Source: Methylobacterium sp. WL119 | GTDB lineage: Bacteria; Pseudomonadota; Alphaproteobacteria; Rhizobiales; Beijerinckiaceae | DNA: 64,000 nucleotides | Direction: 5' to 3' | Assembly: GCF_008039875.1 (NCBI RefSeq) | Contig: NZ_VRUU01000004.1 | Coordinates: forward strand, 62,001-126,000 | Shown: positions 35,003 through 36,560 of the stretch, piece after piece | How positions within the stretch are numbered: the stretch's first letter is position 1 | Layout of the letters: the number at the start of each line of letters is the position of its first letter | Program-made: the position numbers and the translations under genes | The notes under the pieces: model-generated | Database searches by the model: none | What the model was told of the DNA's origin: nothing | Seen by the model: only the letters and a program-made list of their open reading frames with translations

Positions 35003-35725
35003 TCAAGGCACGACCAGGGTCGAGGCCGCATGCCCGGTGAGGATCGCAGTGATCGAGGAGGGCGGGTGCACCGAGCCGACCACGATCGACAGCCGGCTCT
35101 CGCGGGCGAGCGCGAAGGCGGCGGTGTCCATGATCTTGAGGTCGCGGGCGATCGCCTCGTCGTGGGTGATGCGGTCGTAGCGGGTCGCCTCCGGATGGGT
35201 CTTCGGGTCGGCCGAGTAGACGCCGTCGACCTGCGTCGCCTTCAGGACCGCGTCGCAGCGGAGCTCGGCCGCGCGCAGCACGGCGGCGGTGTCGGTGGTG
35301 AAGAACGGGTTGCCGGTGCCGCCGGCGAGCACGACCACCTGGCCCTTGTCGAGGTGGTGCAGGGCCGGCTGGCGCGCGTAGGTCTCGCAGATCGTCGGCA
35401 TCGAGACCGCCGACATCGTCCGCGCGGGGACGCCGGCCGCGTTGAGCGCGGTCTCGAGCGCGAGCGAGTTCATCACCGTGGCCATCATGCCGAGCGAGTC
35501 GCCGGTGGCCCTGTCGATGAACCCGGCCTGCGAGATCCGCGCGCCGCGGATCATGTTGCCGCCGCCGACCACCAGCGCGACCTCGATCCCGGCCTCGATG
35601 GCGCGGGCGATGTCCTCGGCGAGGCCCGCCAGCGTCGGCGGATGGAGCCAGTACCCGTCGGGGGCGGCCAGCGCCTCGCCCGAGAGTTTCACCAGCACCC
35701 GGCGAAACGGCGTCGTCTCCGGCAT
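35003..35725 (-). CDS. pyrH: UMP kinase
   Basis: A 240-residue amino-acid-kinase-fold enzyme phosphorylating UMP to UDP. It has VLVKLSGEALA at the N-terminus, VVGGGNMIRGARI, the GMMATVMNSLAL segment and LKATQVDGVYSADPKTHPEATRYD. ATG 35725 is preferred to 35737 and 35752 because GAGG lies about 6 bases before it. In most relatives pyrH directly follows tsf; here a divergent-strand toxin-antitoxin-like pair separates them, so pyrH must have its own promoter in 35726-35909. Confidence 0.95.
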   Translation of the reverse strand: MPETTPFRRVLVKLSGEALAAPDGYWLHPPTLAGLAEDIARAIEAGIEVALVVGGGNMIRGARISQAGFIDRATGDSLGMMATVMNSLALETALNAAGVPARTMSAVSMPTICETYARQPALHHLDKGQVVVLAGGTGNPFFTTDTAAVLRAAELRCDAVLKATQVDGVYSADPKTHPEATRYDRITHDEAIARDLKIMDTAAFALARESRLSIVVGSVHPPSSITAILTGHAASTLVVP

Positions 35726-35883
35726 CGTCCACCTCATAGGGTCCGGCGACACGGCCGAACCTGATCCAGAACCGAGGGGCTTCTACGTCAGGCCGCCCGG
35801 GACCGTCGAGGCCCCGGAGACCGCTCTCCGCGGACCGTTTCGGAAAAATCGGCTGCCGGCCTCGGATGTCGCCTTGTTGAAGG

Positions 35884-35898
35884 TACGGGATTTCCGTA
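35884..35898 (+). promoter_or_regulatory. Candidate operator of the BrnT-like module
   Basis: TACGG-GATTT-CCGTA is an inverted repeat 11 bases before the toxin start, in the pyrH/brnT intergenic region. Toxin-antitoxin operons are usually autorepressed at such sites. Confidence 0.35.
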
Positions 35899-35909
35899 TC
35901 ATTCGTGGG

Positions 35910-36182
35910 ATGAGCGAGCCGTTCGATCCCGGCAAGGATGCGATCAACCGCGAACGGCACGGCCTGTCGCTCGCGTTCGGCGACAAGATCATGGCGGACG
36001 AGGCCCACCCGATCATTCCCTCCGTCCGGCCGCGGGACGGCGAGGAACGTTTCAAGGCCATTGGTCTGGTCGAGGGCAAACTCCACGCGGCCGTGTTCAC
36101 CTGGCGAAACGGGTGGCCACGGTTCATCTCTGTGAGGCGAAGCAATGCCGGTGAAGGACGAGCCTACGATTCTGGCCTCTGA
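35910..36182 (+). CDS. BrnT-like toxin
   Basis: A 90-residue protein with the BrnT family pattern: FDPGKDAINRERHGLSLAFGDKI, DGEERFKAIGLVEGKLHAAVFTWR and FISVRRSNAGEGRAYD. BrnT is a RelE-fold ribonuclease toxin. ATG 35910 has a weak GTGGGA upstream. The partner begins 38 bases before this stop in another frame. The module is on the plus strand between pyrH and tsf, interrupting a conserved translation operon. Confidence 0.75.
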   Translation: MSEPFDPGKDAINRERHGLSLAFGDKIMADEAHPIIPSVRPRDGEERFKAIGLVEGKLHAAVFTWRNGWPRFISVRRSNAGEGRAYDSGL

Positions 36183-36429
36183 GACCAGCGACCCGGAGGA
36201 TTTCGATGTCCCCGCGACGGCTTTGGATCGGGCGCAGAAGGCCCGGCTGATCCGGATGGCGCGCACGACGCTGGGCCTTTCGCAAGCCGCGTTCGCCCTC
36301 AGGTTCCGTGTCCCGCTCGGAACCCTGCGCGATTGGGAACAGGCTCGGACCACGCCTCCCGATTTCGCGGTCGCCTACGTTCGCGTCATCGCCCGGCATC
36401 CGGACATGGTCGCCGCGGCCGTCGCTTGA
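36145..36429 (+). CDS. HTH-type partner of the BrnT-like toxin (probable antitoxin)
   Basis: A 94-residue protein with an acidic, probably flexible N-terminus (about residues 1-25) and a Cro/C1-like HTH (about 38-70) in LSQAAFALRFRVPLGTLRDWEQAR. Classical BrnA antitoxins are ribbon-helix-helix proteins, so this HTH pairing is unusual. The 38-base overlap with the toxin gene supports a functional pair. The binding half is at the C-terminus, unlike MazE-type antitoxins. Confidence 0.7.
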   Translation: MPVKDEPTILASETSDPEDFDVPATALDRAQKARLIRMARTTLGLSQAAFALRFRVPLGTLRDWEQARTTPPDFAVAYVRVIARHPDMVAAAVA

Positions 36430-36468
36430 GCGAGACGCCGGCGGCTTCGTCGGGTGCCGGAACGCGAA

Positions 36469-36494
36469 GAGCCCCGGCCTTGCGGCCGAGGCTC
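36469..36494. terminator. Hairpin between convergent antitoxin gene and tsf
   Basis: GAGCCCCGGCC and GGCCGAGGCTC pair over 11 bp with one C-A mismatch and a TTGC loop. It lies between the two stops and could serve both strands; T tracts are poor. Confidence 0.45.
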
Positions 36495-36515
36495 CTCGGA
36501 AGAACCTATCATGTC

Positions 36516-36560
36516 GCTCAGCGCGACATGACTCAGCGCAACTTGGCTCAGCGCGACATG
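36516..36560 (-). repeat. Threefold 15-bp tandem repeat at the tsf 3' end
   Basis: Units GCTCAGCGCGACATG, ACTCAGCGCAACTTG and GCTCAGCGCGACATG lie end to end; units 1 and 3 are identical and unit 2 differs at 3 positions. Unit 3 contains the last codons and the TGA stop of tsf on the minus strand, so the end of the gene has been triplicated into the 3' untranslated region. Confidence 0.85.

Follow-up and report, generated by a model that had tools for sequence, protein, structure and literature searches.

We propose a model for two small overlapping genes, encoding a BrnT-like toxin and a helix-turn-helix (HTH) protein, found within a 64,000-nucleotide stretch of the Methylobacterium sp. WL119 genome (the window). 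Very probably the two form a toxin-antitoxin (TA) module, the HTH gene product is very probably the antitoxin of BrnT, and we think it likely that the whole is a mobile type II module of a BrnT-HTH subfamily, neutralized by an antitoxin arm, autoregulated through a palindrome and equipped with a leaderless toxin mRNA. BrnT would inhibit growth by cleaving RNA, in the manner of RelE/BECR-type toxins, and would be covered by the flexible, BrnA-like N-terminal arm of its antitoxin. The HigA/YiaG-like HTH domain, taking the place of the ribbon-helix-helix (RHH) of classical BrnA, would form a dimer on TACGG-N5-CCGTA, a palindrome lying between the two promoter elements, and turn the promoter off, perhaps best as the toxin-antitoxin complex. 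The toxin mRNA would begin no more than a few bases away from its start codon. The antitoxin would be translated from a Shine-Dalgarno site of its own within brnT, an arrangement that should favour it over the toxin. What can be read from the sequence itself is the gene pair and its recurrence, the palindrome with its promoter geometry, a similar arm and an asymmetry of decay.

The most interesting part of the analysis beyond the initial annotation of this DNA is the combination of a conserved toxin-binding arm, an exchangeable DNA-binding domain and a promoter palindrome that matches one branch. On balance we lean towards a modular view of BrnT antitoxins, in which a conserved arm, coded beside the toxin gene and in part inside it, would have been joined on more than one occasion to DNA-binding domains that are unrelated to each other, RHH or HTH, the new palindrome would have come with the new domain in the window's branch, and the HTH form would be a large, little-described branch whose protein ratio is set by a leaderless toxin mRNA together with a Shine-Dalgarno site inside the toxin gene. 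If this is true, the rule that BrnT pairs with a ribbon-helix-helix BrnA gives way to a modular one, with the arm constant and the DNA-binding part exchangeable, and natural sister pairs make antitoxin domain exchange directly testable. The promoter palindrome could then be used to annotate a branch whose antitoxins are named 'helix-turn-helix domain-containing protein', and a function would be suggested for the solved protein Atu1735 (2ppx).

The toxin, its HTH partner and their known relatives

The brnT-like gene (35910-36182, + strand) encodes 90 residues with a predicted RelE/BECR-type fold, and the antitoxin gene (36145-36429, + strand) encodes 94 residues, a BrnA-like arm at about residues 13-35 being followed by the HTH domain. 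The two overlap by 38 nt (36145-36182, +) with the toxin gene first, as in BrnT-BrnA systems. This agrees with the initial annotation, which had described a BrnT-like frame overlapping an HTH frame by 38 bases on the strand opposite to tsf and pyrH: both frames are open on the + strand and both flanking genes lie on the - strand. The start that it gave, 35884, is not in the brnT reading frame; the palindrome begins with this base. For its label 'Cro-like', HigA2/YiaG/MqsA-C-terminal-like is the better description.

The toxin matches the BrnT family PF04365 over the complete model (1-77 of 77) with 61.4 bits against a cut-off of 34.5, which is its sole Pfam match at E-values up to 1; no HigB or RelE family was found at that threshold. 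Its AlphaFold model (pLDDT 90.3) has as its best solved match 7vd7_A, a Salmonella toxin of a TA complex (Foldseek E 5.8e-6, VIA Z 13.1), and superimposes on BrnT of Brucella abortus (3u97) with a Z of 9.4 and 2.5 Å over 73 residues. D6, K9, H17, R40 and E82 are kept and, by our own mapping in motif order, correspond to several of the residues that B. abortus BrnT needs, as named in the accessible text of PMC5086665 and PMC13284704. The same accessible text reports positions Lys16 and Glu7 as important in B. abortus BrnT; the window's toxin has R at position 16, a lysine in 30 of 32 aligned toxins, and P at position 7, and this copy may therefore be weak or may cut differently.

The replacement of a near-invariant lysine by R16, together with the toxin-first decay known in this family, gives some room to the reading that the toxin is a decayed or inactive remnant beside an HTH gene kept as a stray regulator. 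Both frames are nevertheless open and of full length, the toxin agrees with its relatives at each of the 21 positions listed as invariant among 32 aligned toxins, and the palindrome and promoter are intact; we hold a remnant to be unlikely. Decay itself is asymmetric. Among 87 HTH-partnered loci, which were gathered through the toxin and not through the antitoxin, a toxin split over two frames stands beside a whole antitoxin in 10, and a damaged antitoxin beside an undamaged toxin in none. One locus (L144) is damaged in both genes, the toxins of L149, L158 and L162 give short matches with no second frame and are outside the 10, and L156 shows a frame change in one comparison yet passes the broken-toxin test. 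Toxin-first decay is what an addiction pair would predict, and errors of draft assembly would be expected to hit both genes alike. According to the accessible text of PMC7280312, an intact toxin is missing from 23% of the loci that are homologous to the brnTA locus of P. putida.

The HTH domain of the antitoxin falls just below the Pfam cut-offs (HTH_31, 25.3 of 27; HTH_3, 22.6 of 23), and its NCBIfam matches are likewise all below cut-off. Among solved proteins, its match to Atu1735 of Agrobacterium (2ppx, an entry titled HTH XRE-family like protein) has an E-value of 8e-15 and its match to HigA2 one of 4e-5, or 6e-8 by profile. The RHH family PF14384 gave no match at E-values up to 1 in a scan in which two BrnA-type control proteins were both recovered. 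A resemblance to MqsA is limited to the C-terminal HTH part and is below cut-off; the N-terminus of MqsA carries zinc-binding cysteines, and membership of MqsRA was rejected on the grounds that the 94-residue antitoxin has no cysteine at all. In the AlphaFold model (pLDDT 89.3) residues 1-20 are of low confidence and a long helix, 24-42, runs into the HTH domain, the nearest solved structures being again 2ppx and HigA2 (Foldseek E 1e-3 to 2e-2). Toxin-binding segments typically look like this, a flexible arm ahead of the domain that binds DNA, and it is presumably through such an arm that the antitoxin neutralizes BrnT. A search of solved structures with a BrnA query gave no lead.

Over arm and HTH domain together Atu1735 is the nearest solved relative, but it belongs to another branch of the family, and its linkage to BrnT is seen at loci of Atu1735-like proteins: six of eight such loci (L235-L242) have a clear BrnT directly upstream, one has a weak remnant and one has none. 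Atu1735 is thus a member of the BrnT-partner family. A literature search for Atu1735 or 2ppx returned seven papers, to judge by titles on unrelated subjects only.

With its HTH partner the pair truly departs from textbook BrnTA. The BrnT-BrnA system of the B. abortus type (PF04365 with PF14384) shares with the window's pair the toxin family, the predicted fold, the toxin-first overlapping genes and the N-terminal arm of the antitoxin, but has an RHH where the window's antitoxin has a HigA/YiaG-like HTH. As far as their accessible text goes, the BrnT entry of Makarova et al. 2009 (PMC2701414) has RHH as the predicted partner type, and TASmania (PMC6504116) finds the BrnA cluster nearly always with BrnT. 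Fusions that join BrnT with an HTH domain are reported in PMC11980606 (two among 33 BrnTA fusions), whereas the window has two separate overlapping genes; in the accessible portion of that paper the canonical two-gene form is shown as RHH, and there is no mention of a two-gene HTH form, of the palindrome or of the shared arm. The systems HigB2-HigA2 and RelE-YiaG appear to have a similar type of antitoxin HTH, and RelE-YiaG has the same toxin-first order (PMC11980606, accessible text), but the window's toxin is a BrnT and not a member of the HigB or RelE Pfam families, and the arm of its antitoxin is BrnA-like. In the literature searched, to which most subscription papers did not belong, the only two-gene BrnT-HTH system described, in the text accessible, was RelS-RelI of Mycobacterium tuberculosis. 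The two BrnT-HTH fusions and RelS-RelI are thus in print, plasmid records already carry the annotation, and in the accessible text the two-gene BrnT-HTH form appears barely described.

The palindrome, the promoter and the translation starts

The palindromic operator candidate TACGG-N5-CCGTA, TACGGGATTTCCGTA in the window, lies at 35884-35898 (+) just 5' of brnT and recurs upstream of many HTH-partnered toxins. It is set between a -35 element, TTGTTG (35874-35879, +), and a -10 element, TATCAT (35897-35902, +), with a spacer of 17 nt, such that the -10 box begins in the last two bases of the palindrome. Position-wise information over 44 loci with flanks less than 70% alike reveals strong upstream conservation only at the TTG of the -35 position, the palindrome and the -10 box, with the same 17-nt spacer. 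A consensus promoter scan listed nothing at brnT, though the family alignment shows the promoter; the -35 element was missed because TTGTTG has only three of the six consensus bases. In one relative (G041, 61% identical) the reverse complement of the window's palindrome word is found in the same place, and the whole genome of the window's strain has two distinct exact sites, one of them 35884-35898.

All 158 collected loci (87 HTH-partnered, 53 BrnA-type and 18 other BrnT loci) were searched over the 100 nt upstream of the toxin. The exact palindrome is present at 54 of the 87 HTH-partnered loci, a figure that leans on loci gathered by similarity to the window's toxin; 66 of the 87 have it with at most one mismatch. 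At BrnA-type loci (0/53) and other BrnT loci (0/18) it was not found even with one mismatch. Among the 21 HTH-partnered loci that fail the same relaxed search, 11 come from the class census described below, in which L194 alone of 12 HTH loci passes, and nine are relatives, for the most part Sphingomonadales-like; only four of 14 viral-contig relatives have the exact palindrome. The palindrome thus marks the window's branch and some neighbours, not all HTH partners. We infer that it is an operator to which the HTH protein binds. More distant HTH antitoxins (L160, L163, L165, L166) have the same palindrome arms around another core, for example TACGGCAATGCCGTA.

The position of the palindrome also bears on how the toxin is translated. 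Exact palindromes are present at 46 of the 66 loci in the set of relatives described below, and 42 of the 46 begin 24-28 nt ahead of the toxin start codon, the start codons having been taken from the protein match, independently of the palindrome. The -10 box ends 19 nt into this stretch and leaves about 5-9 nt to the start codon, which puts the expected transcription start on or close to that codon and predicts a leaderless toxin mRNA. A Shine-Dalgarno word of at least three bases is missing at 37 of 52 toxin starts and a six-base one is found at 38 of 47 antitoxin starts, in a count where start codons were picked nearest the expected distance, a bias that flatters its distances and of which the 42 of 46 is free. 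The excess at antitoxin starts may be partly coding, because the sites fall inside conserved toxin codons. The window's own antitoxin start has a weaker, four-base word, GAGG.

A shared antitoxin arm and the toxin tree

Four near relatives of the window's toxin (L105, L150, L152 and L155, from Sphingomonas and Sphingobium) have BrnA-type RHH partners, and the N-terminal segment of these four partners (ADPNDPEDFDVSEEAIEQAL in L150) resembles the arms of the HTH antitoxins. For a test of this resemblance, residues coded inside the toxin overlap were removed beforehand and loci with broken toxins or without a recognizable arm boundary were left out, so that 75 HTH arms and 38 RHH arms were kept; a similarity that is a by-product of overlap with toxin codons was in this way eliminated as an explanation. 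Twenty-eight representatives were chosen, of which three had no arm, and in 23 of the 25 tested the best local score of the HTH arm against the 38 RHH arms beats that of its own shuffles (p at most 0.03). The window's arm reaches z 6.0 (p 0.005) against the RHH antitoxins and the best HTH/RHH pair, L224/L229, z 18.2; the HTH arms of L184 and L205 showed no similarity to RHH arms in the shuffle test. When the background consisted of stretches of real proteins encoded in the window's housekeeping region, the 95th percentile was exceeded by all 61 short arms, one of two middle and nine of 11 long ones, one of the 75 arms lying outside these size classes, and the independent cases are fewer than counted because many arms are closely related.

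In a tree of 146 toxins the type of partner needs 10 changes, at least three of which are forced by well supported branches, although the tree is a quick search over 91 columns in which gain and loss are indistinguishable. The window's toxin is placed in an all-HTH set of 51 rows (SH-aLRT 99), nested in a set of 62 rows that includes four RHH rows (99). Arms and tree together suggest that the toxin-binding arm was conserved and that the DNA-binding domain behind it was exchanged on more than one occasion.

That the likeness to BrnA is in the arm, outside the HTH domain, speaks against a reading in which the HTH domain itself would clamp the toxin, as in RelS-RelI, with no autoregulation through DNA binding. 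There is a published case, for in the accessible text of PMC13284704 a BrnT-like toxin is blocked sterically by its HTH-containing partner with, according to the authors, no evidence that this partner binds DNA. RelS-RelI resembles the window's pair in having a BrnT-like toxin followed by an HTH-containing antitoxin, but RelI is described there as ClpC2-like and almost confined to Actinomycetes, which sets it apart. The promoter-spacer palindrome, moreover, is a feature of HTH-partnered loci only, at 54 of 87 against none of the 71 BrnA-type or unassigned loci, a difference that also separates the window's system from BrnT-BrnA, and the best solved relatives of the antitoxin, HigA2 and Atu1735, are ordinary HTH domains, HigA2 having been solved on operator DNA. 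We regard an HTH clamp as decidedly improbable and retain an arm that would cover the toxin with an HTH domain that would bind the palindrome.

Distribution of the module and the tsf-pyrH site

The module is a mobile, widespread variant rather than a unique one. Searching 72,556 plasmid records gave 72 toxin matches. Of the 40 of these that were listed, 16 already bear the annotation 'BrnT family toxin | helix-turn-helix domain-containing protein', against four with 'BrnT family toxin | BrnA antitoxin family protein'; plasmid-borne modules (L101-L104, L108) occur in Zymomonas, Cereibacter and Komagataeibacter, and a single strain, C. azotoformans ORIO, has the module on both pORIO1 and pORIO2. 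A scan of genome contigs returned 66 relatives, whose names are with few exceptions alphaproteobacterial or unspecified; two, L172 (Salinisphaera) and L174 (Competibacteraceae), we take to be gammaproteobacteria. The partner is HTH in 63 of the 66 and RHH in three, and the recurrence of BrnT followed by an HTH partner at 63 of 66 related loci excludes a chance pairing. Hosts of different families are intermixed in the toxin tree, nine of the 14 viral-contig relatives have an HTH partner downstream, and 23 further loci of relatives have 19 RHH and four HTH partners.

A census of the BrnT family over 142 genomes of the class was not aimed at the HTH form and mostly left out below-cut-off matches and second halves of split matches. 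It fetched 58 loci, of which 57 were usable, with a recognized toxin; the partners are 27 BrnA-type, 12 HTH and 18 matching neither model, and of 12 of these 18 viewed by eye 11 have the look of a CopG-type RHH. The genome of the window has three more BrnT, all with BrnA-type partners. All such counts are partly redundant (sister strains, two Cereibacter plasmids) and are not independent events; L004, L006 and L027 (duplicates) and L201 (no BrnT match) were dropped beforehand. The initial annotation had suggested a new TA combination and a search for co-occurring BrnT and HTH pairs, which turned up many, in relatives, census, plasmids and viral contigs alike. Of that suggestion there survives a very probable HTH antitoxin in a barely described pairing; the idea that the pair is rare or specific to its site is contradicted by the 12 of 57 and 63 of 66.

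The module lies between pyrH (UMP kinase, PF00696, named by similarity and gene order; 35003-35740, - strand) and tsf (EF-Ts, PF00889; 36548-37471, - strand). The insertion, about 650 bp, comprises toxin, antitoxin and promoter (approximately 35812-36466), its edges are homologous to module-free junctions of the same genus, and no convincing target-site duplication was found at it. Behind tsf is a terminator-like hairpin (36466-36497, -), the fold of 36430-36547 (-) having -62.8 kcal/mol and z -3.9, which a consensus terminator scan did not list because it asks for a T run. This hairpin and the antiparallel transcription speak against the module being part of a tsf-pyrH operon. The initial annotation had placed it inside a translation operon and suggested that this essential operon may stabilize it; an unbroken tsf-pyrH operon is ruled out here by the hairpin and the junction data, and stabilization lacks support, since the other resolved junctions are short or have other genes.

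Fifty-five tsf-pyrH junctions were resolved in 59 genomes of the genus. The 54 others measure 106-4075 bp, 34 of them below 300 bp and 11 at 700 bp or more, and several have diacylglycerol-kinase-type and metallophosphoesterase genes (families confirmed for L061). Gene content was noted at L061-L066, L068, L072, L075 and L100, with a fatty-acid-hydroxylase gene in addition at L065 and a family-2 glycosyltransferase at L066, and L045 and L070 have, by eye, remnants of the diacylglycerol-kinase-type/metallophosphoesterase genes. The genome nearest by Tsf (G014) has a small ORF with a sub-threshold match to DUF4926. Comparing relatives at this junction, as had been proposed, shows the module in this genome only among the junctions seen: the toxin and HTH proteins matched one of 30 junction loci searched, this genome's own, and blastn of the window's junction against the 54 others aligned flanks and short pieces but not the module genes.

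A close BrnT (E up to 1e-18) is found in eight of 111 genus genomes, this one included, and the other seven loci all have an HTH partner, six with the exact palindrome. Neither tsf nor pyrH was seen in the fetched flanks of these seven, of the 14 viral loci or of 74 other plasmid and genome loci; a pair peculiar to tsf-pyrH is ruled out by these loci elsewhere, and its place here is incidental, a variable intergenic site. It is barely credible that the module is a domesticated regulator of tsf or pyrH held in place by selection: it does lie in the divergent region upstream of pyrH, where a repressor could touch pyrH transcription, but among the genomes looked at it is at tsf-pyrH in this one alone, and neither the junction searches nor the flanks elsewhere give it that company again. 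For the mobile TA module that we favour, we see no role with respect to the neighbouring genes. At 36516-36560 a 15-bp unit (GCTCAGCGCGACATG-like) is present in three tandem copies that span the stop codon of tsf.
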